Below, one piece after another: positions 5,522 through 46,982 of a DNA stretch of 50,837 nucleotides. The position numbers and the translations under genes are program-made. The notes under the pieces were generated by a model that worked only from the letters and a program-made list of their open reading frames with translations, did not search any database and was not told the DNA's origin. Location: contig JAPKBH010000013.1 of NCBI GenBank assembly GCA_028823445.1, positions 1 through 50,837 on the forward strand, written 5' to 3'. Position 1 is the stretch's first letter. Each line of letters starts with the position of its first letter. The stretch is from Acidimicrobiales bacterium. Lineage in GTDB: Bacteria; Actinomycetota; Acidimicrobiia; Acidimicrobiales; MedAcidi-G1.

Positions 5522-6835
5522 ATGACCAACCATCACAACGCGCAAATTGATCTCGCTTGGCTTACCCAACGTTTGGGTTACGGCATGAGTCCTGATGAGC
5601 AAACGAACCTAGACGGCGTTGATCCAACTACTGTGCTGGCTCGCCGATTGGACCCAGAGTCACACGGGGTAGCTATACCTCCGAGCCCCTTTGAAGGGTT
5701 AGGTGATCTCATTCCGCCCGACATTGACCCCGATAATTTTCCGGCTTTACGTCGGGCCGCTTACCAGCAGCTTTTAGGAATTTGGCTCGACGAACTTCGA
5801 GACACTTCAGACCCTTTGCTGGAATGGATGACCTTTTTTTGGCATGACCATTTTGCAGTAACCAGTGAAGTGGTACTTAACCCGGTGATCATGGTTAACC
5901 ATCTTTCTTTGTTGCGGCAGCATGCTCGAGGAAACTTCGGCGACTTGTTGCGAGCGGTCACCCTTGACCCGGCCATGCTTATTTTTCTTGATGGCCGATC
6001 CAGCGTGGCGAGGCAACCCAACGAGAACTATGGCCGTGAACTTTTGGAGCTTTATTCCATTGGGGTGGAGCACTACACCGAAGCCGATGTTGTCGCTGCT
6101 GCTTCTGCGTTGACCGGTTGGCAAATACAACCTGGGGACGGCGGGACGGCAGTTTTTTCTGCCCGACGCCACGATGACACCCACCGGACCCTGCTGGGGG
6201 CAAGCGGAGTACACGATGTAGACACGGTGCTCGATGCTGTATTGAATCACCAAGCATTACCTGGTTTCATTGCTGGCAAATTAGCTGCATCTATTTTGGG
6301 AAACGACTTTGACGAAAATCAGGTACCTGAATTTGCCCATGTTTTTGCCAACCACAACCTTGACCTTGCCCCGCTGATCTCCGCTATCGCAGAAGCAGGA
6401 TTGGCCTTAACCAGTCGTTCTCCTTTGGTGCGTCACCCGGTGAGTTGGCTCACCAATGCCGAAAAAACTACCGGCGCGCGAATAGACACCCGGGCACGTG
6501 CCCACATTTTGCATTCCATGGGAATGGTGCCTGGTCGACCGCCTCATGTGGGTGGGTTTCCTCCACCGGAGAACTATCTCAATGCTTCTTCTACCGCCGC
6601 ACGCTTTACCAGCGCTGGGTTGGTGGCCAACCAGGCCCCCGAAGATTCGTTGGCTTTGGCTGCTGCTTCAACGGGAGATTGGCAAACCTTGGCTTCGCTG
6701 CTGGGCCGGCCTCAAGGCTTCTCTGCCGCTTCACTTTCTGCTTTAGATGGTCTTAAAGATGCGACTCCTTCTGGCCAACAGGGTCGCAACTGTTTAGCTC
6801 TGTCCTTATCCACCCCCGACTTTTTGGTGATCTGA
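5522..6835 (+). CDS. DUF1800 family protein, copy 1
   Basis: A 437-residue DUF1800 protein. Typical family segments: WLTQRLGYGMSPDE at the start, WMTFFWHDHFAVTSEV near residue 100, LLRQHARGNFGDLLRAVTLDPAMLIFLDGR, then NENYGRELLELYSIGVEHYTEADV, and a C-terminal RHPVSWL...MGMVPGRPPHVGGFP block. The biochemical function is unknown; DUF1800 genes are commonly next to DUF1501 genes, as here. No signal peptide is seen. The stop overlaps the next start as TGATG, so the two are coupled. It is about as long as copy 2 at 8148 and clearly paralogous to it. A weak CATGAT box lies 6 nt before the start. Confidence 0.9.
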   Translation: MTNHHNAQIDLAWLTQRLGYGMSPDEQTNLDGVDPTTVLARRLDPESHGVAIPPSPFEGLGDLIPPDIDPDNFPALRRAAYQQLLGIWLDELRDTSDPLLEWMTFFWHDHFAVTSEVVLNPVIMVNHLSLLRQHARGNFGDLLRAVTLDPAMLIFLDGRSSVARQPNENYGRELLELYSIGVEHYTEADVVAAASALTGWQIQPGDGGTAVFSARRHDDTHRTLLGASGVHDVDTVLDAVLNHQALPGFIAGKLAASILGNDFDENQVPEFAHVFANHNLDLAPLISAIAEAGLALTSRSPLVRHPVSWLTNAEKTTGARIDTRARAHILHSMGMVPGRPPHVGGFPPPENYLNASSTAARFTSAGLVANQAPEDSLALAAASTGDWQTLASLLGRPQGFSAASLSALDGLKDATPSGQQGRNCLALSLSTPDFLVI

Positions 6836-8124
6836 TGAACGAAAACTTAAACCGACGACGCTTTCTTTATCTCGCTGGCGGGGCTACCGCAGCGGCCGCC
6901 ACAGGTGCTGCAGCGTGGGCTGGCTTGCTTCGAGAACAAGTCAACGGAGCGCCGACGCTAACTTTGCCAGGTCTCACCACGACCACCACCAGCATGACGC
7001 CGACCACCACCACTTCGTTGGCCCCGGGCCAAGGCCCCAAAAACCCAGTATTAGTTATTGTGCAGATGCAAGGCGGCAACGATGGCCTCAACACTCTGGT
7101 ACCGCTTAACGGCCGTTACCAAGATCTTCGCCCCACGTTGGCGCTCGGCGACCACGAGATGCTTGACCTTTCAGACGCTCAAGATTTTGCTCTCCACCCA
7201 GCGCTGGCCCCGTTGTTGCCTTTGTGGGAAAATAACTTGTTGACTGGGGTGACCGGTATCGGTATTCCTGGTCAGGGCCGGTCACATTTTACGGCCAGCG
7301 ATAGTTGGCATAGTGGCCGTACCAGCCCAGAGACCACCGGCTGGTTAGGCCGCTGGCTTGATGCCACCGCCAACGGCCCGGCCAATCCTTTGCGGGCCGT
7401 GTCTTTGGGGGGCGGAGCACCTATTTTGACGGCAGAGTCACAGCTCTCTACCATCATTAACTCGCCTCGCAATTTTCGTTTATCTACCCCTCCGGGTTCG
7501 GATAGCGAAGCCATCGTGGCGGCTTTTTTACAGACCGCTTCACCTCTTTCTGGTGACCCCACTTTGGCCGCTGCGCAAATGGCTATCCCTTCTACCTTGG
7601 AGGCCATTGAAGTACTCGGGGTCGACAGTGGGGTTACGGCGGACGAGCCACCGGAGGAGAACTACACCTCGTTGCTTGACACGGCGGCTGGGCTCATTGA
7701 TTTAGATGTCGGGACTGAGGTCATCGTGGTCAGCGTGCATGGTTTCGATACTCACTCTGATCAACGAAGCCGGCAAGAAAAACTGTTGGCCAATCTGGCG
7801 GCGGGCTTGGCTTCCTTTCATCAACGCCTGGAGGCCAATGGCCACGCCGACCGGGTGCTCATTATGACCACCAGCGAGTTTGGCCGCCGGGTACAGGAGA
7901 ACGCTTCGGGCGGCACCGACCACGGTACGGCTGGGGCGCAGTTTATTATTGGCCCCAACCAGGGCATCATTGGCCAAGTTGATTTGGATAATTTAGTGGA
8001 CGGCGATGTACCTATTGCGGTAGACACCCGATCCATGTACGCCACTGCTCTTGATTGGCTCGGTGGCCCCACCGACGAAATCCTCGGCAAAAAATACGAC
8101 CGCTTGCTTGATAACTTGCCCTAG
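6835..8124 (+). CDS. DUF1501 family exported protein, copy 1
   Basis: A 429-residue DUF1501 protein with a twin-arginine signal: NRRRFLYLAGG followed by an Ala-rich hydrophobic stretch, then a Thr-rich linker (TTTTTSMTPTTTTS). The family core starts at PVLVIVQMQGGNDGLNTLVPLNGRY, continues with GIPGQGRSHFTASDSWHSGR, and ends with TTSEFGRRVQENASGGTDHGTAG and DWLGGPTDEILG. DUF1501 is related to the alkaline-phosphatase/sulfatase superfamily and is Tat-exported; its substrate is unknown. It starts inside the TGA of the DUF1800 gene. A fragment of its 3' end recurs at 12839-12910. Confidence 0.9.
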   Translation: MNENLNRRRFLYLAGGATAAAATGAAAWAGLLREQVNGAPTLTLPGLTTTTTSMTPTTTTSLAPGQGPKNPVLVIVQMQGGNDGLNTLVPLNGRYQDLRPTLALGDHEMLDLSDAQDFALHPALAPLLPLWENNLLTGVTGIGIPGQGRSHFTASDSWHSGRTSPETTGWLGRWLDATANGPANPLRAVSLGGGAPILTAESQLSTIINSPRNFRLSTPPGSDSEAIVAAFLQTASPLSGDPTLAAAQMAIPSTLEAIEVLGVDSGVTADEPPEENYTSLLDTAAGLIDLDVGTEVIVVSVHGFDTHSDQRSRQEKLLANLAAGLASFHQRLEANGHADRVLIMTTSEFGRRVQENASGGTDHGTAGAQFIIGPNQGIIGQVDLDNLVDGDVPIAVDTRSMYATALDWLGGPTDEILGKKYDRLLDNLP

Positions 8125-8135
8125 TCGGTGCCTGC

Positions 8136-8141
8136 TAGAAT
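8136..8141 (+). promoter_or_regulatory. -10 box before DUF1800 copy 2 (leaderless)
   Basis: TAGAAT ends 6 nt before the GTG at 8148, so the second cassette may have its own leaderless promoter within the 23-bp gap after copy 1. Confidence 0.5.
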
Positions 8142-8147
8142 CTTTTT

Positions 8148-9461
8148 GTGGTCACCTCAGACAAGATTGCCAGCGACCTCGCTTGGCTTACCCAGCGCTT
8201 GGGTTACGGGTTAACCCCCGACGAACAAAGCCAACTCGAGGGAATCCGTCCTGCCACCTTGCTGGCTCGCTGGGTTGATCCAGAGAGCCATGGTTTGGTC
8301 ATCCCTCCTGATCCTTTTGAAGGATTGAGCGAACCTATTCCCTTAAGTTTGAAGGATGAAGAACTAGCAAATCAGCGGCAAATGATTTCTGAACAATATT
8401 TAGAGGCATGGCTTAACGAACTCCTCACTACAGCCGACCCGTTGTTGGAGTGGATGACCTTTTTTTGGCATGACCATTTTGCGGTGACCAAAACTGCGGT
8501 AGGTGACCCGCTCACTATGGCCAACCACATCTCTTTGTTGCGCCAACATGCTCGAGGAAACTTCGGTGACTTGTTGCGGGCCGTCACCGTTGATCCGGCC
8601 ATGCTTATTTTTCTTGATGGTAGTTTGAGCGTGGGGGAACAGCCCAACGAGAACTTTGGCCGCGAACTTATGGAGGTTTACTCCATCGGAGTAGAGCACT
8701 ACACCGAAGCCGATGTGGCGGCCGTCGCTTCGGCTTTAACCGGCTGGGAGATACCGGAAGGCGATACCGGAGCGGCGGTTTTTTCTGCCTGGCGCCACGA
8801 CGATACCCCTCGCACTTTATTAGGGGTCAGTGGAGTACACGATGTAGAGACGTCACTTGATGTGATCCTGGGTCACCCGGCACTGCCCGGATTTATTGCG
8901 GGAAAACTGGCCAAAGCTATTTTGGGTAACGATTTTGACGTAAACCAGGTACCGGAATTTGCGGAAGTTTTCGCCCGCCACGATCTAGAAATTTCTCCGC
9001 TTATTACCGTTATTGCTCAAGCCGGCTTGGACAAAACCAACCGTTCTTCGTTGGTGCGCCACCCAGTAAGTTGGCTCATTAATGCCCTAAAAACTACCGG
9101 GGCTCAGCTCAGTTTCGACGATCAGTCTCACTTCTTAAGGACCAGCAATATGTTGCCCGGCCAGCCACCACACGTGGGTGGGTTTCCGGCCCCCAAGGAT
9201 TACCTAAGCGCCTCGTGCACAGCCGTACGCTTTACCGCCGCCGGTAAAATAGCGCACTTGACCCCCAGAGATTCCTTAGTTTGGGCCGCCGCTACTTCCG
9301 GGGATTGGGATGCCTTGGCAACTCTACTGGGTTGCTCCGCAGGGTTTTCCGATGCCTTGCTCTTCACCTTGCGTGAGCTCTGGGTTAATGTTCCGATCCG
9401 CAAACATGGCATAAGTTGTTTAACTCTGGCCTTAGCCTCTCCCGATCTTTTGATGGTCTGA
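8148..9461 (+). CDS. DUF1800 family protein, copy 2
   Basis: A 437-residue paralogue of the gene at 5522 with the same segments (WLTQRLGYGLTPDE, WMTFFWHDHFAVTKT, RGNFGDLLRAVTVDPAMLIFLDGS, NENFGRELMEVYSIGVEHYTEADV) and the same length. The start is a GTG with no ribosome-binding site but a good TAGAAT box 6 nt upstream. Its TGA overlaps the next ATG as TGATG exactly as in copy 1, showing that the two-gene cassette was duplicated as a unit. Function unknown. Confidence 0.9.
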   Translation: MVTSDKIASDLAWLTQRLGYGLTPDEQSQLEGIRPATLLARWVDPESHGLVIPPDPFEGLSEPIPLSLKDEELANQRQMISEQYLEAWLNELLTTADPLLEWMTFFWHDHFAVTKTAVGDPLTMANHISLLRQHARGNFGDLLRAVTVDPAMLIFLDGSLSVGEQPNENFGRELMEVYSIGVEHYTEADVAAVASALTGWEIPEGDTGAAVFSAWRHDDTPRTLLGVSGVHDVETSLDVILGHPALPGFIAGKLAKAILGNDFDVNQVPEFAEVFARHDLEISPLITVIAQAGLDKTNRSSLVRHPVSWLINALKTTGAQLSFDDQSHFLRTSNMLPGQPPHVGGFPAPKDYLSASCTAVRFTAAGKIAHLTPRDSLVWAAATSGDWDALATLLGCSAGFSDALLFTLRELWVNVPIRKHGISCLTLALASPDLLMV

Positions 9462-10789
9462 TGAGTCACCACTTAAATCGACGGCGTTTTCTTTACCTTG
9501 CTGGTGGAGCCACAGCAGCCACCGCTACCGCCGCTGCCGCGTGGGCTGGCCTACTACGAGAACAAATCAAGCGAGGCCCCTCCTTAACCTTGCCTGGCAT
9601 CGCTGGTTCAACGACCACTACCTCTACGACCACTACCTCAACGACCACTACCTCAACGACCACCGTGGCGCCCACCACTACCTCGTTAATACCAGGCCAG
9701 GGTCCCCGAAAACCAGTGCTAGTTGTCGTGCAGATGCAAGGCGGCAACGATGGGTTAAACACCTTGGTGCCCCTCAACGGTCGCTATCAAGATGCTCGCC
9801 CTACTTTGGCCTTGGGCGACCACGAGATGCTGGAACTTTCTGGTAACCAAGATTTTGCTTTGCACTCTGCCTTGGCCCCTTTATTACCTTTGTGGGAAAC
9901 CAACTTATTGACTGCAGTGACCGGCATTGGTATCCCCGGTCAGGGCCGATCGCATTTTACGGCCAGCGATAGTTGGCACAGCGGCCGCACCGACCGAGGG
10001 GTCACCGGTTGGTTGGGGCGTTGGCTTGATGCCACGGCAAGCGGTCCGGCCAACCCTCTACGGGCCGTTTCTCTGGGCGGCGGTGCCCCTATTTTGGCCG
10101 CTCAACAACAACTCTCCACCTCCATACATTCACCACAAAATTTCAACCTCTATACCCCACCCGACTCCGACGGGGAAACGCTGATTGATGCTTTCCTTCG
10201 GGTCGCTTCGCCACTTTCCACGGATCCCACCTTGGCCGATGCCCAACAAGCAATTTTTTCTACCTTCAGTGCCTTAACCGCACTTGAGATAACCGCCGGC
10301 AACCCAAGCCCATGGTCGGGCGAAGAGACCTACACCACGCTGTTAGATACCGCAGCCAATCTTATTAACCTTGATCTCGGCACCGAGGTGATCGTGGTCA
10401 GCGTGCATGGTTTTGATACCCACTCTTATCAGCGCAGCGCTCACGAAGAGTTGCTGACTAATCTGGCTGATGGCTTAGCTTCCTTTCATCAACGTTTGGA
10501 AGCCGACGGCCACGCCGACCGGGTATTGACGGTGACCACCAGCGAGTTTGGCCGCCGACTTGAAGAGAATGGTTCGGCCGGCACCGACCATGGCACCGCC
10601 GGGACACAATTCATCATTGGCCCCAACCAGGGAATAATCGGCCAAGTTGATCTGGATAATTTGGTCGACGGCGACGTACCTATTTACGTAGACACTCGGT
10701 CCATGTACGCCACCGCTTTAGATTGGTTAGGTGGCCCCACCGACGAAATCCTCGGCCAAAAATACGACCGCTTGACAGCAACTATTTAA
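9461..10789 (+). CDS. DUF1501 family exported protein, copy 2
   Basis: A 442-residue paralogue of the 6835 gene. The start is the ATG inside the TGATG junction; an upstream in-frame ATG would overlap the DUF1800 gene and add a non-homologous tail. It has the Tat motif NRRRFLYLAGG, a hydrophobic Ala-rich segment, a longer Thr/Ser linker (about residues 50-80) from a 15-bp DNA repeat, then the DUF1501 core with GGNDGLNTLVPLNGRY, GQGRSHFTASDSWHSG and SEFGRRLEENGSAGTDHGTAG. Its TAA overlaps the ATG of the protease gene (TAATG), so this copy is coupled to the protease and lipoprotein genes. Confidence 0.9.
   Translation: MSHHLNRRRFLYLAGGATAATATAAAAWAGLLREQIKRGPSLTLPGIAGSTTTTSTTTTSTTTTSTTTVAPTTTSLIPGQGPRKPVLVVVQMQGGNDGLNTLVPLNGRYQDARPTLALGDHEMLELSGNQDFALHSALAPLLPLWETNLLTAVTGIGIPGQGRSHFTASDSWHSGRTDRGVTGWLGRWLDATASGPANPLRAVSLGGGAPILAAQQQLSTSIHSPQNFNLYTPPDSDGETLIDAFLRVASPLSTDPTLADAQQAIFSTFSALTALEITAGNPSPWSGEETYTTLLDTAANLINLDLGTEVIVVSVHGFDTHSYQRSAHEELLTNLADGLASFHQRLEADGHADRVLTVTTSEFGRRLEENGSAGTDHGTAGTQFIIGPNQGIIGQVDLDNLVDGDVPIYVDTRSMYATALDWLGGPTDEILGQKYDRLTATI
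9609..9670 (+). repeat. 15-bp tandem repeat coding for a Thr/Ser linker
   Basis: The unit ACGACCACTACCTCA recurs about four times with single-base changes (CTCT/CTCA) and encodes TTTTS repeats in the DUF1501 copy 2 linker. Copy 1 has a shorter version, so repeat-number change explains part of the length difference. Confidence 0.85.
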
Positions 10790-40769: not shown

Positions 40770-42068
40770 ATGAAAAAAATTACTTACCCATCTATCTTTT
40801 TAGCCTTTGCCTTAGTGGCGGGTGCGTGTGGGAATACAGAAGTTTCCGTCGCCCCTACGACCACTGCCGCTCCAACCACTACGACCACTGCCGCTCCAAC
40901 CACTACGACCGTCGCCCCTACGACCACTGCCGCTCCAACCACTACGACCGTCGCCCCTACGACTACTGCCGCTACTCGCAGTGTTCAAATTCAGGCTTCT
41001 GACGATGAGGCAGTTTTGGGCGCCATCTTGGCATCTGAAGAAATCAATTTTGGGTCAGATGACACCCTCGCATGGAACATCACTTACCGTTCGCAGTCAG
41101 TGACCGGTGAACCTATTGAGGTTACTGGGACTATTTTAGCCTCTGCCGAAACTGCCGATGGACCTCGCCCGGTGCTGTCCATTGCTCACGGGACCACTGG
41201 CATGGCCGATCAGTGCGCTCCTTCGCTTTCTTTTGATAATCCTGACCCCGACTGGTCTTATTTTGAAAGACTCAACCCGCTCTTAGCCAAAGGGTGGATA
41301 CTGGTAGCCACCGACTACGAAGGGATGGGCGGGCCGGGGCTACACCCTTACATTGTGGGAGAAAGCGAAGCGCGGGGTGTTTTTGACATTGTGCGTGCGG
41401 CGCAAACTATTCCAGAACTCAACGCCACCGGCCCGTTGGTGGTATGGGGCCACTCGCAAGGTGGCCATGCCGCTATGCACGTGGCAGAACGGTGGCAAGA
41501 GATTGCCCCCGAACTTGACTTGGTGGGGGTGGCCGCTGGTGCTCCTCCCAGTCAAATGCCCCTCTTAAGTGACTTCCTTATTGGCAGCGATTTTCAAGGT
41601 TACCTGGTCATGGTGGCCGCTGCCTTCGGAGCTGCTTACGCAGAGCTTGATCTTTCAGAAGTAATAAGTCCTGATTACTTTGGCCTTCTTGAAGAACTTG
41701 AATTGGGCTGTACGGGCCATATTTTTGAAACCTTTAACTCAATCGCTTACGAAGATTTAGTTTCCGTGGACGACATTTTTGCCATCCCTGAGTGGAACGC
41801 TCGACTTACCGAAAACGACACCAATCAACTCCCCAACCAAACCCCAGTCCTTATCTTGCACGGCGATGCCGACGAACAGATCCCAGTTATTAGCAGCGAG
41901 TGGCTCCTTGACCAGCTCTGCGCTCTTGATGGTCACCAAGCTTTAGAACGACGGGTTTACCCAGGGTTTGGGCATTCCGCTGCGGTGGGCGCTTACTGGT
42001 CAGAACTGATTGAATGGCTTGACCAGCGCATTGCTGGCCAGCCGGCTACTGACCAGTGCCCGGCTTAG
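40770..42068 (+). CDS. lipoprotein alpha/beta hydrolase (secretory lipase-like)
   Basis: A 432-residue lipoprotein (start ATG 40770, or GTG 40767). The signal ends in a lipobox (VAGAC), followed by a (A/V)APTTT repeat linker (about 30-70). The hydrolase domain has VLSIAHGTTGMADQCAPS, the nucleophile GHSQGGHAAMHVA, a likely Asp in LHGDADEQIPV and His in GFGHSAAV, giving a Ser-Asp-His triad. It resembles secreted triacylglycerol lipases of the LIP family. It probably acts on the outer cell surface. Its stop overlaps that of the aquaporin gene by 4 bp. Confidence 0.85.
   Translation: MKKITYPSIFLAFALVAGACGNTEVSVAPTTTAAPTTTTTAAPTTTTVAPTTTAAPTTTTVAPTTTAATRSVQIQASDDEAVLGAILASEEINFGSDDTLAWNITYRSQSVTGEPIEVTGTILASAETADGPRPVLSIAHGTTGMADQCAPSLSFDNPDPDWSYFERLNPLLAKGWILVATDYEGMGGPGLHPYIVGESEARGVFDIVRAAQTIPELNATGPLVVWGHSQGGHAAMHVAERWQEIAPELDLVGVAAGAPPSQMPLLSDFLIGSDFQGYLVMVAAAFGAAYAELDLSEVISPDYFGLLEELELGCTGHIFETFNSIAYEDLVSVDDIFAIPEWNARLTENDTNQLPNQTPVLILHGDADEQIPVISSEWLLDQLCALDGHQALERRVYPGFGHSAAVGAYWSELIEWLDQRIAGQPATDQCPA
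40855..40980 (+). repeat. tandem repeat coding for a (APTTT) linker
   Basis: Units of about 15-21 bp built from CCTACGACCACTGCCGCT and close variants recur about seven times and code for the Ala/Pro/Thr linker of the lipase-like lipoprotein. It is in frame and coding, not a CRISPR array. Confidence 0.85.
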
Positions 42069-42733
42069 TCTTGTTGCGGAAACAGTTGGCGGATTAACGC
42101 TATTGCTATCGCTACCCCTACCAGTTGCATAGCAATAAACATGGGGGCCGAACTGCAGGCGATCCCGGCAAAGGTGTCAGACAAGGTACGGGCCACGGTG
42201 ACGGCGGGGTTGGCGAAACTGGTAGATGAGGTGAAGTAATACGCCCCACCGATGTAGGCGCCGACCACATACGGAATGGCCGACAAACGAGCGGTTCGCA
42301 CCAAACTAAACACCACTAGCAAGAGCCCTACGGTGGCTACTACTTCGGAAAGCCAAAGGTTGCTGCTTGAGCGTTCGGTGGTTGACCACACTACGGCGGG
42401 CAGGTCAAACATCAGGTTGGCCAGCATGGAACCGATGGCGCCACCCACTATTTGAGCGACCACCATGGGAGCTACTTGGCGCCCTTCTCGATGACCCAGC
42501 GCCCAGGCGCCGATGGTGACTGCCGGGTTGAAGTCAGCGGAGATGGTGCCAAATATTGAGATGATGGCCACCAACACTGCGGCGGTGGCAGCAGCGTTTT
42601 GAAACAGTTGTAGCCCCACGTCGTTGGGTGAGAGCCGTTGAGCCATAATGCCCGAGCCCACCACCCCGATGAGTAAAAACATGGTGCCGACGCCCTCGGC
42701 GAGCAGGGTACGACGAAAGGCGGGGGTGTTCAT
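42065..42733 (-). CDS. MIP family channel (aquaporin/glyceroporin)
   Basis: A 222-residue membrane protein with the two half-helix motifs of the family, NPA in ADFNPAVTIGAWALGH and in SFANPAVTVARTLSD, and six hydrophobic segments. Such channels pass water, glycerol or small neutral solutes such as arsenite. The start overlaps the cimA stop by 4 bp, so it is the last gene of the leuB-ilvE-cimA transcript, an unusual place for a channel. No direct tie to the Sec-ArsC genes 39 kb away can be shown. Confidence 0.9.
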   Translation of the reverse strand: MNTPAFRRTLLAEGVGTMFLLIGVVGSGIMAQRLSPNDVGLQLFQNAAATAAVLVAIISIFGTISADFNPAVTIGAWALGHREGRQVAPMVVAQIVGGAIGSMLANLMFDLPAVVWSTTERSSSNLWLSEVVATVGLLLVVFSLVRTARLSAIPYVVGAYIGGAYYFTSSTSFANPAVTVARTLSDTFAGIACSSAPMFIAMQLVGVAIAIALIRQLFPQQD

Positions 42734-44349
42734 TGTTTGTTTTCTGTTTTCAGTAGTCCATAGACCATGGAGTCAACCAGGGCTTGCCATGAGGCTTCAA
42801 TAATATTTTCTGACACACCAATGGTTGTCCAGGTGTCTTCGCCGTTGGTGGTATCGAGTAACACTCGGGTAACGGCGCCGGTGCCGCGGCCGGTTTCTAG
42901 TACCCGTACTTTGAAGTCGGTAAGCCGCAAGGCATCGATCGCTGGGTAGCGGTCGCCTAAAGCACTGCGCAAAGCTGCATCCAACGCGTTTACTGGGCCG
43001 TTGCCACTACCGGTGGCTGTTTCTGTTCGCCCATCTAGGGCAATGGTCACCGTGGCTTCAGTTTCTACTTCTACTGCTACGTCGTTCCATGCTCGGCTCC
43101 CACTCCCCGACCGGTGACCGATCTGCACCGAGAATGATTCCAGTTGAAAAAACTCTTGTTCCCACCCGCCGGCGGCCCTCATGAGGAGTTCCAACGAGGC
43201 GTCGGCGGCTTCAAAGTGGTAGCCGCGATATTCCAAATCTTTGAGCGTTTCCACTACTTCGCCGAGAACTTCGGTTTTGAGGCTGAGACCTAACTGTTCG
43301 GCCCGTAGGGCAATGGTGGCTCGGCCAGCCATTTCGGAAACCAAGAACCGGGTGCCGTTTCCTACCAAGTTGGGGTCGATGTGTTCGTAGGCATCGGGGC
43401 GGCGAGCAATGGCGCTGGTGTGCAGCCCGGCTTTGTGGGCGAAGGCGGTGGACCCAGCGTAGGGCTGTTGCGGGTCGGCGGTAAAGTTTGCTACTTCGGC
43501 CACATGGTGGGCCACCGAGGTGAGTTCTTTCAAACGCCCCTCGGGTAAGGTTTCTATCCCCAGTTTGAGGCTGAGGTTGGCGATGATGGGTATCAAGTCG
43601 CAGTTCCCTACTCGTTCGCCATAACCGTTGATGGTGCCCTGTACTTGGGTGGCCCCGGCCATGACCCCAATCATGGTGTTGGCAATGGCGCAACCGGTGT
43701 CGTTATGAAAGTGCACGCCTATGGGGGTCGAGAATTTGGCTACTACTTCGGTCACTATGCGCTTTACTTCATCGGGCAGTGTTCCGCCGTTGGTGTCGCA
43801 AATAACCAAACAATCGGCTCCGGCATCGGCGGCACCCTGCAATACATCTAAAGCAAACGTTGGGTTGGCTCGGTAGCCGTCGAAAAAATGTTCAGCATCA
43901 AAGAATACTTCAAGACCTTGTTCTTTCAAGTAGCGAATGGAGTCGGCCACCATGGCCACCCCTTCTTCCAAGGTGGTGCGGAGCGCTTCGGTTACGTGAT
44001 AGTCCCATGACTTGCCCACGATGCACACCGTTTTGGTGCCCGAGGCCACCAAGTTGGCCAAGGTGGGGTCGTCTTTTGCTTCGCCGTTTACCCGGCGGGT
44101 AGAGCCGAAAGCCACCAAACGTGATCGTTGGAGGTTCAATTCGGTTTTAGCCCGCTCAAAAAACTCTACGTCTTTGGGGTTGGCGCCTGGCCAACCACCT
44201 TCGATGTAGTGCACGCCCAGACGGTCGAGTTGCTCGGCGATGCGGAGTTTGTCGTCTACGGTGAGCGAGATGCCCTCGAGTTGGGCACCGTCGCGCAGCG
44301 TGGTGTCGTAGATGTCTACGGCTTTTGGGGTGCCCCCGGAGTTAGGCAT
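42730..44349 (-). CDS. cimA: (R)-citramalate synthase
   Basis: A 539-residue LeuA/CimA-type enzyme started at the ATG at 44349, which overlaps the ilvE stop by 8 bp. AVDIYDTTLRDGAQLEGISL begins the TIM barrel; FDAEHFFDGYRANP, CDTNGGTLPDEV and HFHNDTGCAIANT hold metal ligands. A C-terminal regulatory LeuA-dimer domain follows (about 390-539). The sequence type (cimA, TIGR00977-like) condenses acetyl-CoA with pyruvate, the first step of isoleucine synthesis that bypasses threonine. Ile feedback is known for this class. Confidence 0.92.
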   Translation of the reverse strand: MPNSGGTPKAVDIYDTTLRDGAQLEGISLTVDDKLRIAEQLDRLGVHYIEGGWPGANPKDVEFFERAKTELNLQRSRLVAFGSTRRVNGEAKDDPTLANLVASGTKTVCIVGKSWDYHVTEALRTTLEEGVAMVADSIRYLKEQGLEVFFDAEHFFDGYRANPTFALDVLQGAADAGADCLVICDTNGGTLPDEVKRIVTEVVAKFSTPIGVHFHNDTGCAIANTMIGVMAGATQVQGTINGYGERVGNCDLIPIIANLSLKLGIETLPEGRLKELTSVAHHVAEVANFTADPQQPYAGSTAFAHKAGLHTSAIARRPDAYEHIDPNLVGNGTRFLVSEMAGRATIALRAEQLGLSLKTEVLGEVVETLKDLEYRGYHFEAADASLELLMRAAGGWEQEFFQLESFSVQIGHRSGSGSRAWNDVAVEVETEATVTIALDGRTETATGSGNGPVNALDAALRSALGDRYPAIDALRLTDFKVRVLETGRGTGAVTRVLLDTTNGEDTWTTIGVSENIIEASWQALVDSMVYGLLKTENKQ

Positions 44350-45262
44350 TGACGTAGTCGTTCCATGACGAGTATTGCGGGCTTTGGCCGCGTACCGCAG
44401 CAAAGTAGCCCTCTTGAATAGCTTGGGTAATGGGCCCGGGGTCGCCGATTTCTCGGTCATCAACGGAGCGGATGGGTACTACTTCTGCAGCGGTGCCCGA
44501 AACGAATGCTTCGTCAGCGATGTAAAGGTCGCTGCGCAAAATGTTGCCCTGGGTGTAGGGAATGCCCAGGTCTTCGGCGATACGGCGCACTGTTTTTTGG
44601 GTGATGCCTTCGAGCGCTCCGGCCGAGGTGGGTGGGGTAACAATGCCGCCGTCGCGTACCACGAATAAGTTTTCGCCCGTGCATTCAGAAACATAGCCCT
44701 GAGGTGACAGCAAGATGGCTTCGTCGTACCCGGCTTTGATGGCTTGCACTTTGGCCATTTGCGAGTTGATGTAATGACCGCATCCTTTGGCGGCGGGTGG
44801 CATGGCGTTGGGGTCGTGGCGTTGCCAAGAGGAGATCATCATGCGCACGCCATTTTTTACCCCGTCATCGCCGAGGTAAGAGCCCCATGGCCAGCAGGCG
44901 ATAGAAACATCAACCGTGCAGGGCAATGGGTTGAGGCCCATTTCGCCGTACCCGAGGTAAGCCAAGGGGCGGATGTAGCACGAAGAAAACCCGTTTACTC
45001 GTACGGTTTCCAAGGTGGCGTCAACCAGTTGGTCGATCGTCCAGGGGATGTCGATGAAAAGTATTTTGGCCGATTGAAACAGTCGTTCGATGTGGGGGCG
45101 GAGTTGAAATATTGCTGCGCCTTTATCGGTTTCGTAGGCTCGAATGCCTTCAAAAACCCCGTTGCCGTAATGCAAAGTGTGGGTGAGTACATGCACCGTG
45201 GCATCGTCCCAATTGACTAATTCACCGTTCATCCATATTTTGTCTGCTTTTTCGAGGGGCAT
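44342..45262 (-). CDS. ilvE: branched-chain amino acid aminotransferase
   Basis: A 306-residue fold-type IV PLP enzyme. It has WMNGELVNWDDATVHVLTHTLHYGNGVFEGIRAY, FIRPLAYLG-like YIRPLAYLGYGEMG, the PLP Lys in AAKGCGHYINSQMAK, and DEAILLSPQGYVSECTGENLFVV. It interconverts Leu, Ile and Val with their 2-oxo acids. The ATG follows AAGGAAA. It lies between leuB and cimA in the operon. Confidence 0.95.
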   Translation of the reverse strand: MPLEKADKIWMNGELVNWDDATVHVLTHTLHYGNGVFEGIRAYETDKGAAIFQLRPHIERLFQSAKILFIDIPWTIDQLVDATLETVRVNGFSSCYIRPLAYLGYGEMGLNPLPCTVDVSIACWPWGSYLGDDGVKNGVRMMISSWQRHDPNAMPPAAKGCGHYINSQMAKVQAIKAGYDEAILLSPQGYVSECTGENLFVVRDGGIVTPPTSAGALEGITQKTVRRIAEDLGIPYTQGNILRSDLYIADEAFVSGTAAEVVPIRSVDDREIGDPGPITQAIQEGYFAAVRGQSPQYSSWNDYVNA

Positions 45263-45290: not shown

Positions 45291-46271
45291 TTAGTGAATT
45301 CGTTGGGCTATTGCGTCGCCGATGGCTACGGTGCCTTCGACTTGGGTTTCTGGGTCGGCGCAGGCTGCTTTGATACTTTCCGCTGCTGCTGTTTCCCCGA
45401 GGAAGTCCAGCATCATAGCGCCCGACAAGATGGCGGCCGTGGGGTTGGCGATACCTTGCCCGGTGATGTCCGGTGCTGAGCCATGGACGGGTTCGAACAT
45501 GGAGGGGCTGGTGCGGTCGGGGTTGAGGTTAGCGGAGGCCGCTAAGCCGATGCCCCCGGCGACTGCTCCCCCCAGGTCGGTGAGGATGTCGCCAAATAAA
45601 TTGTCGGTCACGATGACGTCGTATTGTTCGGGCGCTTGCACAAAATGGATGCAGGCCGCATCAATATGGTTGTAGGCCGTTTCTACGTTGGGATATTCGG
45701 TGGCCACTTCGTTGAAGGTGCGTTCCCAAAGATCACCGGAAAAGGTCAACACGTTCGTTTTGTGCACCAAGGTGAGGTGGTTACGGCGGCTCGCTGCCAG
45801 GTCAAAAGCAAAACGAATACAGCGTTCGGCACCCCGACGGGTATTAACCGACCCTTGGGTGGCGATTTCGTGTGGAGTGTTTTTGCGCAAGAAGCCGCCT
45901 TCGCCGGCGTAGGTGCCTTCGGTGTTTTCGCGCACTACTTGAAAGTCAATGTTTTTTTCTGGAAAAAGAAACGGTCGAAGGTTGACGTAGAGGTCAAGTT
46001 CGAAACGCATTTTGAGCAGCAAACCGCGCTCGATGAGCCCTGGGGGCACTGCTGGTGTCCCTACTGCTCCGAGGTAAAGGGCGTCAAGGCTACGCCATTC
46101 TTCAATGATGCTGTCCGGCAAAACCGTACCGTCACGGCCGTAGCGTTCGCCGCCCAAGTCGTAGTACACGGTGTCTAGGGCAACGCCCGCCGCGCTGATT
46201 GCCTTGAGTCCTTCGGCTATGACCTCGGGGCCAATGCCGTCACCGCCGATGATGCCTATGCGATGTGCCAC
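45291..46271 (-). CDS. leuB: 3-isopropylmalate dehydrogenase
   Basis: A 326-residue decarboxylating dehydrogenase started at the GTG at 46271 with AGGAG 7 nt upstream, beginning [21 protein letters not shown]. Also seen: [30 protein letters not shown], and [14 protein letters not shown] with the metal-binding Asp. LeuB oxidises 3-isopropylmalate, and also the homologous methylmalate in the citramalate route, so it serves both Leu and Ile synthesis here. It is the first structural gene after the attenuator. Confidence 0.93.
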
Positions 46272-46322: not shown

Positions 46323-46347
46323 AAAAAACCGCCCACTAAGTGGACGG
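46323..46347 (-). terminator. attenuator terminator upstream of leuB
   Basis: CCGTCCAC and GTGGGCGG pair in 8 bp (one G-U) around a TTA loop and are followed by six T on the minus strand. It lies between the leader peptide and the leuB start, so readthrough decides operon expression. Confidence 0.88.
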
Positions 46348-46352
46348 TCGAA

Positions 46353-46374
46353 GCGCACACCAAAAGGCGTGCGC
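46353..46374 (-). promoter_or_regulatory. leader hairpin before the attenuator
   Basis: GCGCAC/GTGCGC plus an inner CC/GG around an AAAA (plus-strand) loop forms a stable hairpin whose 5' arm begins at the stop codon of the leader peptide. By position it is the pause or protector hairpin (1:2) of an attenuation system; an alternative antiterminator pairing was not clear to me. Confidence 0.65.
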
Positions 46375-46409
46375 TACAAAATAATAATTACCGAAGATGT
46401 TTTGTTCAT
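46374..46409 (-). CDS. leader peptide of the leuB-ilvE-cimA operon (MNKTSSVIIIL)
   Basis: An 11-codon ORF, ATG-AAC-AAA-ACA-TCT-TCG-GTA-ATT-ATT-ATT-TTG then TAG, with five branched-chain codons in a row: Val, three Ile and Leu. It is followed at once by a hairpin and a terminator. Stalling at the Ile/Val/Leu codons when charged tRNA is scarce would favour readthrough into leuB. It has no ribosome-binding site and a TACACT box 7 nt upstream, so it looks leaderless. Too short for normal gene calling. Confidence 0.88.
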   Translation of the reverse strand: MNKTSSVIIIL

Positions 46410-46416
46410 GGTCAAG

Positions 46417-46447
46417 AGTGTAGCAAGTCGCCCCCCGGGGCAGTCAA
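46417..46447 (-). promoter_or_regulatory. promoter of the attenuated leuB operon
   Basis: TTGACT (46447-46442) and TACACT (46422-46417) on the minus strand have a 19-bp spacer, slightly long. The -10 box ends 7 nt before the leader peptide ATG. Confidence 0.6.
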
Positions 46448-46502: not shown

Positions 46503-46508
46503 CGCCGT

Positions 46509-46982
46509 ATGCCTCAGATACATCAACTCTCTCAACAAGCTCACGACCGTTTGCTGGCCGAACTCACCGACCTGACCACTCGGGGGCGTATTGACATTGC
46601 TCGTAAAATTGAAGCGGCTCGTGAACTTGGGGATCTTTCCGAAAATGGCGATTACCACGCGGCCAAAGAAGAAAAAGGGAAAATGGAGGGGCGCGTTATG
46701 CATATAGAAAGCGTCCTTGAAGACTGCGAGATCGTAGAAAGCCCCGTAGGCCCGGTTGATGAAGTCACTACCGGGGTGATCGTTACGGTTCTTTACGAAG
46801 GCGATGACGAGCCAGAACGCATGTTGGTGGGTTCTATCGAAGAACAACGTGATGACGTTGTTGTGGTCTCGCCTCGTTCCCCTCTGGGAGAAGTTCTTTT
46901 GGGTTCTTCGGTGGGTCAAGAAGTAACTTTCGTGGCACCGAACGGTGACCTGCAGGTGCGAATCATCGATATTGGCGAGTAA
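46509..46982 (+). CDS. greA: transcription elongation factor GreA
   Basis: A 157-residue GreA started at the ATG at 46509. The N-terminal coiled coil has RIDIARKIEAARELGDLSENGDYHAAKEEKG with the acidic tip (DLSENGDY), and the C-terminal FKBP-like domain runs from about 80 with SPRSPLGEVLLGSSVGQEV. GreA rescues backtracked RNA polymerase by stimulating cleavage of the RNA 3' end. A longer upstream in-frame reading would run over the leuB leader and is unlikely. The hydrolase gene starts 3 bp after its stop. Confidence 0.95.
   Translation: MPQIHQLSQQAHDRLLAELTDLTTRGRIDIARKIEAARELGDLSENGDYHAAKEEKGKMEGRVMHIESVLEDCEIVESPVGPVDEVTTGVIVTVLYEGDDEPERMLVGSIEEQRDDVVVVSPRSPLGEVLLGSSVGQEVTFVAPNGDLQVRIIDIGE

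Follow-up and report, generated by a model that had tools for sequence, protein, structure and literature searches.

The leuB-ilvE-cimA operon of this Acidimicrobiales bacterium is preceded by a leader that is very probably a switch testing the scarcity of isoleucine and valine through the translation of a tiny peptide. Comparison of leaders located before different branched-chain amino acid (BCAA) operons strongly supports codon-reading attenuation that senses Ile, together with Val, and the leader is with high probability a ribosome-mediated transcription attenuator of the leuB-ilvE-cimA operon. The window referred to below is the whole stretch of DNA analysed, 50,837 nucleotides in length.

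Anatomy of the leader and its locus

The elements of the leader and the genes of the operon, the latter named from NCBIfam profile matches above cut-off, are listed in Table 1. The original prediction had described a promoter, an ORF encoding MNKTSSVIIIL, a hairpin at its stop codon and a terminator with six T residues, followed by leuB, and each of these was recovered on the minus strand at the positions listed. The citramalate route to Ile uses leuB, ilvE and cimA, and leuB also serves in the Leu route. The TIGR00977 profile matches the cimA ORF only from residue 49, and the true start of this gene may lie further inside the ORF listed.

Table 1. Positions of the leader elements, the operon genes and the two further leaders of the same genome
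Feature	Position	Strand	Details
-35-like element TTGACT	46447-46442	-	Read from sequence
-10 element TACACT	46422-46417	-	19-nt spacer from TTGACT; 7 nt 5′ of the leader ATG
Leader ORF, MNKTSSVIIIL, 11 codons	46409-46374	-	ATGAACAAAACATCTTCGGTAATTATTATTTTGTAG; ATG at 46409
Leader control codons GTA ATT ATT ATT		-	Positions -5 to -2 before the stop; then TTG (UUG)
Leader stop codon TAG	46376-46374	-	
Hairpin H1	46375-46352	-	AGCGCACGCC TTTT GGTGTGCGCT; 5′ end inside the leader stop codon
Intrinsic terminator stem-loop	46349-46327	-	GACCGTCCAC TTA GTGGGCGGTT; overlaps the T run
T6 (U-tract) of the terminator	46328-46323	-	Read from sequence
leuB ribosome-binding site AGGAG	46283-46279	-	Read from sequence
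leuB, 3-isopropylmalate dehydrogenase	45291-46271	-	GTG start at 46271; NF002898, 476 bits (cut-off, 393)
ilvE, branched-chain aminotransferase	44342-45262	-	TIGR01122, 416 bits (cut-off, 246); NF005146 also above cut-off
cimA, citramalate synthase	42730-44463	-	TIGR00977, 676 bits (cut-off, 450)
ilvB leader of the window's genome	L292 (G000:C9)	-	MQGIYFATKVVVVP (...KVVVVP before the stop); four Val (GTC GTA GTA GTG at -5 to -2); UAG-fused hairpin and terminator
leuA leader of the window's genome, MQQFSYLLLLT	L368:1323-1358 (G000:C26)		Four Leu (CTC CTT CTG CTT at -5 to -2); UAG-fused hairpin and terminator

The leader occupies the gap separating leuB from a greA-like gene that is transcribed divergently (46506-46982, plus strand) and the product of which scored 130.4 bits, just under the TIGR01462 GreA cut-off of 139. 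At the other end of the operon, a gene for a MIP/aquaporin-like channel (42065-42733, minus strand; 68 bits, far under the family cut-off of 171) overlaps the end of cimA. Elsewhere in the window, at 5522-10789 on the plus strand, a two-gene unit (about 437 and 429 to 457 amino acids) is present in two adjoining copies, an apparent tandem duplication, with the second protein of the unit beginning with a twin-arginine-like RRRF.

A TANNNT motif was found 6 to 8 nt before the leader start in 30 of 31 family leaders (shuffled sequences gave a mean of 1.8 and a maximum of 7), and TTGAC was found in 20 of the 31. A Shine-Dalgarno-like sequence was present before the start in none of these 31 leaders. 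Based on the promoter-to-ATG spacing, the leader ORF is predicted to be translated from a leaderless mRNA, with the transcript starting at or next to the ATG.

The predicted folding energy of the 100-nt leader is -39.1 kcal/mol, compared with -20.6 ± 3.0 kcal/mol for shuffled sequences (z = -6.2), and none of 200 shuffles folded as well. A generic scan of the window for terminators found one where 1.7 were expected, which alone is not significant. As in an attenuator, the intrinsic terminator lies between the leader ORF and the first gene, and the terminator sequence itself is strongly conserved. In each operon class, the median starting point of the first hairpin (H1) is the last base of the stop codon (+2); H1 spans 16 to 49 nt, with a median distance to the terminator of 1 to 3 nt in all classes. 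It was found that both hairpins covary, with double changes in 17 of 18 pairs and in 127 cells of an alignment that was fitted to the structure, a count reached by none of 500 shuffles. The covariation score was 0.425 versus 0.149 in shuffles, and the signal was lost when the pairing partners were slid. When the leuB class was aligned using MAFFT, 25 double-change cells were identified, again reached by none of 500 shuffles. The H1 arms of this class, GCGCAC and GUGCGC, are conserved beyond the needs of a simple stem. In most leuA leaders (L368-L398), the H1 loop carries ACAUA or a near match while the stem varies; ACAUA is also present in the H1 loop of some ilvB and cimA leaders, with L211, L347, L356 and L357 as further loci.

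Distribution of the leader and identity of its control codons

In a DNA search, the leader was recovered from 37 of the 48 genomes of the family and from 22 of the 23 that were of good quality, the named relatives being marine and other Acidimicrobiales. A pattern representing the conserved core matched all 23 good family genomes, including the doubtful locus L137 (G020), which was rejected as a leader as the pattern matched but the leader anatomy was absent. The family genomes with the leader harbor one true copy each, upstream of leuB, and in all 28 family sequences read the ATG or GTG is positioned exactly 33 nt before the stop codon, giving an 11-codon frame (examples of the encoded peptides are MSTTRPVIIIS, MHSPHPVILIS, MNGLHRVIIIR, MGHRYLVIAIT and MDRLLSVIQIF). 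In one family genus (L046, G009) the leader lies directly before ilvE, without leuB, and its H1 stem is fully replaced. Several public MAG records titled “Bifidobacterium breve” or “Flammeovirgaceae” (L089, L090, L094, L119 and L097) have a leuB that is 71 to 76% identical to that of the window, and these titles look wrong.

A covariance model built from leuB leaders recovered the element from 150 of 248 order-level genomes. A second model (R2), which covers all operon classes, had matches in 251 of 298 genomes of the order, representing 157 of 167 genera, and, when the whole phylum was sampled, in 86 of 396 genomes, among them members of other orders and classes; many of these genomes are incomplete MAGs, and the E-values of the models are rough owing to short calibration. 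A search of the window and seven sister-leader loci against Rfam 15 at the gathering score returned no leader match, only a tRNA.

Weaker matches, and second matches within the same genomes, revealed sister leaders of the same anatomy preceding other branched-chain operons. In a set of 164 leaders (locus L272, which had been assigned an incorrect stop codon, not counted), codons -5 to -2 before the stop encode 56% Ile, 26% Val and 1% Leu ahead of leuB-ilvE-cimA, and 6% Ile, 61% Val and 25% Leu ahead of ilvB; leaders of cimA alone have 84% Ile, and those of leuA (n = 3) have 92% Leu. The difference in Ile between operon classes was reached by none of 10,000 label shuffles; neither related leaders nor the labels of related genomes are independent observations, yet the codon switch is also seen within single genomes. 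Peptides end in AIIIIR, RIIIIR, SIIIIT or NAIIIIL before cimA alone, in LVVVLR, LVVVVM or VVLVLI before ilvB, and in GLLLLT or SLLLLM before leuA. The window's own genome contains three leaders, ending in VIIIL (leuB operon), VVVVP (ilvB) and LLLLT (leuA), in each of which the control codons at -5 to -2 are followed by one free codon, UAG and then the hairpin. A leuA leader of the same type was identified at 27 of 30 family leuA loci, using a filter that required Leu at three or more of the positions -6 to -2. Searching the family genomes with a leuA of the L219 type gave no match, as these have the other LeuA type (TIGR00973).

Within the leuB class, Ile is encoded at -2 in 83 of 84 leaders, 43 of which were picked by a pattern with ATT at -2 and the rest via a model trained on them; positions -5 to -3 vary (V, I, A, S and others) and are Val/Ile-rich. 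All 36 leuB-class leaders that were picked without ATT in the pattern have ATT at -2. Thus, of the three Ile codons to which the original prediction drew attention, the one at -2 is near-invariant, and conservation of all three did not hold. The prediction had also named codon conservation in relatives as a check: the frame and the Val/Ile content are kept, codon identity switches with the operon, and the refuting pattern, loss of the codons with retention of the terminator, was not seen.

The choice among synonymous codons is also skewed. Where Ile is encoded at -2, the codon is ATT in 72 of 86 cases, compared with 22% in the downstream genes, and among 51 Val codons found at -3 in leaders of ilvB, 47 are GTA, compared with 8%. 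Across 150 leuB- and ilvB-class leaders, ATT is favoured at -2 (leuB) and GTA at -5 to -3 (ilvB), both being minority codons downstream.

The leader ORF contains a run of control codons of the kind that characterizes ribosome-mediated transcription attenuators, its translation being suggested by conservation of the frame, and operon-matched control codons were found in four operon classes and in three operons of the window's genome. This switch of codons with the operon is expected of amino-acid-specific ribosome stalling, but not of a terminator that reads no codons or of an RNA that binds a ligand.

Readings of the two-hairpin leader

Under codon reading, RNA polymerase would begin the transcript on the A of the leader ATG or on a neighbouring base, and a 70S ribosome would initiate on the leaderless mRNA. 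When Ile- and Val-tRNA are charged, the ribosome would traverse GUA-AUU-AUU-AUU-UUG and be released at UAG, after which H1 would form from the stop codon and the terminator behind it, ending transcription before leuB. Under a shortage of Ile (or Val), the ribosome would stall on the codons just 5′ of the stop, above all on the Ile codon at -2. In standard footprints, the front of a ribosome extends roughly 15 nt past the first nucleotide of the codon in the P site; the stalled ribosome would reach over about five bases at the beginning of the H1 5′ arm, so that H1 would be blocked, and with H1 open transcription would continue into leuB-ilvE-cimA. A ribosome stalled at -2 would keep H1 open and one stalled at -5 would leave it free. 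Such a geometry would account both for the fusion of the stop codon to H1 and for the constraint on the codons being greatest at -2. We infer this starvation response and stall geometry from the arrangement of the leader. The freed 3′ arm of H1 might then act as a short kinetic antiterminator, a possibility suggested by work on C. glutamicum (PMC11857589), or H1 itself might promote termination.

In the first of these two cases, the freed H1 3′ arm (GGUGUGCG) would pair with the terminator 5′ arm (CGUCCACC), a classical form of codon reading to which we give somewhat less than even weight. Pairings of this kind, with energies of -7 to -8 kcal/mol, can be drawn in many leaders of the leuB class, and C. 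glutamicum ilvBNC has a trinucleotide overlap of antiterminator and terminator (PMC11857589). However, the corresponding pairing in the window (GGUG-GCG with CGU-CACC of the terminator) reaches just -4.4 kcal/mol and is not better than in shuffles, and the pairing is not conserved between operon classes, whereas H1 is. No conserved antiterminator in which the H1 3′ arm pairs with the terminator 5′ arm was found across the operon classes, and the best pairing of an H1 arm with the terminator was about -2 to -8 kcal/mol versus -12 to -16 kcal/mol for the terminator, a comparison by folding that could miss a short kinetic antiterminator. Inspection by eye of the leader codons against the terminator, and of the H1 5′ arm against the terminator 3′ arm, revealed no conserved pairing. 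When the 5′ arm of H1 was kept from pairing, the terminator 5′ arm paired with the RNA upstream of it no more strongly than with a shuffled version: the values were 0.38 in the leuB class (0.37 with shuffled upstream sequence), 0.23 in ilvB leaders (0.32 shuffled) and 0.22 in leuA leaders (0.27 shuffled). The leader had been described as a complete attenuation layout; the elements listed are in place, but complete is too strong a term, as no conserved antiterminator was found.

Alternatively, the two-hairpin attenuator would function without an antiterminator, in which case the stop-welded, terminator-abutting H1 would be needed for efficient termination and a stall at -2 would unwind H1 and let transcription go on. 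We offer this reading tentatively and consider it rather unlikely. Were it true, one module would have been copied or adapted to four BCAA operons, order-wide and beyond, by the swapping of four codons.

It is highly improbable that the leader instead acts by binding a ligand, a tRNA or a protein through H1 (as a riboswitch, a T-box or a LEU-element-like protein site). The leuB-class H1 arms, over-conserved for a simple stem, and the ACAUA sequence in many leuA and some other H1 loops would fit such a site; against it, neither the window nor the sister leaders gave an Rfam match, the H1 stem has been swapped by covariation in other leaders (L046), and the amino-acid specificity resides in the codons. 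A riboswitch or T-box was rejected on these grounds. A plain terminator or promoter-proximal attenuator that does not read codons, with the short ORF as a by-product, agrees with the strong conservation of the terminator and with the chance occurrence of short ORFs but is scarcely credible given the fixed 11-codon family frame and the rare codons at control positions, and it is contradicted by the operon-matched codons, which shift between Ile, Val and Leu from one operon to another although the anatomy is constant. Both a plain terminator and a chance ORF were rejected.

Relation to known attenuators and significance

The E. coli ilvGMEDA, leuABCD and trp attenuators have leader-peptide control codons and a terminator before the operon, as does the leader described here, but their leaders are Shine-Dalgarno-led and have defined 1:2, 2:3 and 3:4 pairings, and on this general description they are set apart.

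Among actinobacteria, BCAA leader peptides before ilvB and leuA were described in 2005 for Corynebacterium, Mycobacterium and Streptomyces (Seliverstov, PMC1262725), with attenuators that were often missing parts; the genome list of that study has no Acidimicrobiia, and it gives no leuB or cimA case. Those leaders resemble the present ones in their cognate codon runs before ilvB and leuA. The LEU element, however, is a pseudoknot between Leu codons and the leuA Shine-Dalgarno box (PMC1262725), whereas in the leuA leaders identified here a hairpin fused to the stop codon is followed by an intrinsic terminator. Leaderless leader peptides are known for ilvBHC, leuA, leuS and trpE of Streptomyces lividans, in which LeuL1 is without a typical terminator (PMC8079986), unlike the leuA leaders here. 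One observation speaks against codon-reading attenuation: in S. coelicolor ilvB, altering the presumed control codons gave no effect (cited in PMC1262725), and a leader peptide alone is therefore no proof of classical attenuation.

The Corynebacterium ilvBNC/ilvB-II motif is likewise an actinobacterial leader with a leaderless, BCAA-rich short ORF and an intrinsic terminator before a BCAA operon (PMC10272879, PMC11857589), and the C. glutamicum ilvBNC leader has been discussed as a leaderless mRNA (PMC11857589). It differs in having a three-hairpin antiterminator that has been modelled and mutated and a uORF that overlaps the first hairpin, whereas here H1 is located at the stop codon and no antiterminator was found; in addition, the operon here is leuB-ilvE-cimA, and the ilvB sister leader of the window's genome is without an Rfam match. 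For M. tuberculosis ilvB1, attenuation was shown in 2026, with a BCAA uORF (LVVI, GUA control codon), a Rho-independent terminator and evidence for control of read-through (PMC13236596). That leader is 166 nt long with a UGA stop and a reported antiterminator, and it precedes another operon in another actinobacterial class.

A text search of the literature, with subscription papers outside its reach, found neither an Acidimicrobiia attenuator nor an attenuator of citramalate synthase. The expectation that such an attenuator was undescribed therefore stands for the citramalate operon, but its leaderless peptide is not a novelty (PMC8079986, PMC11857589). As far as the literature searched shows, no attenuator had been reported before on an operon of the citramalate (pyruvate-to-isoleucine) route, and, judged by sequence comparison, the leader family, which is absent from the RNA database and the literature searched, is a widespread addition to a known type of switch. 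The natural codon swaps, together with the lack of an obvious antiterminator, provide a test case for codon reading and for the effect of a stalled ribosome on the terminator in actinobacterial ilv and leu leaders. The leader codons also offer a handle for annotation, as they predict the pathway of the downstream operon. In this little-studied and mostly uncultured order, BCAA genes would thus be under one reusable leader module, the specificity of which lies in four codons.
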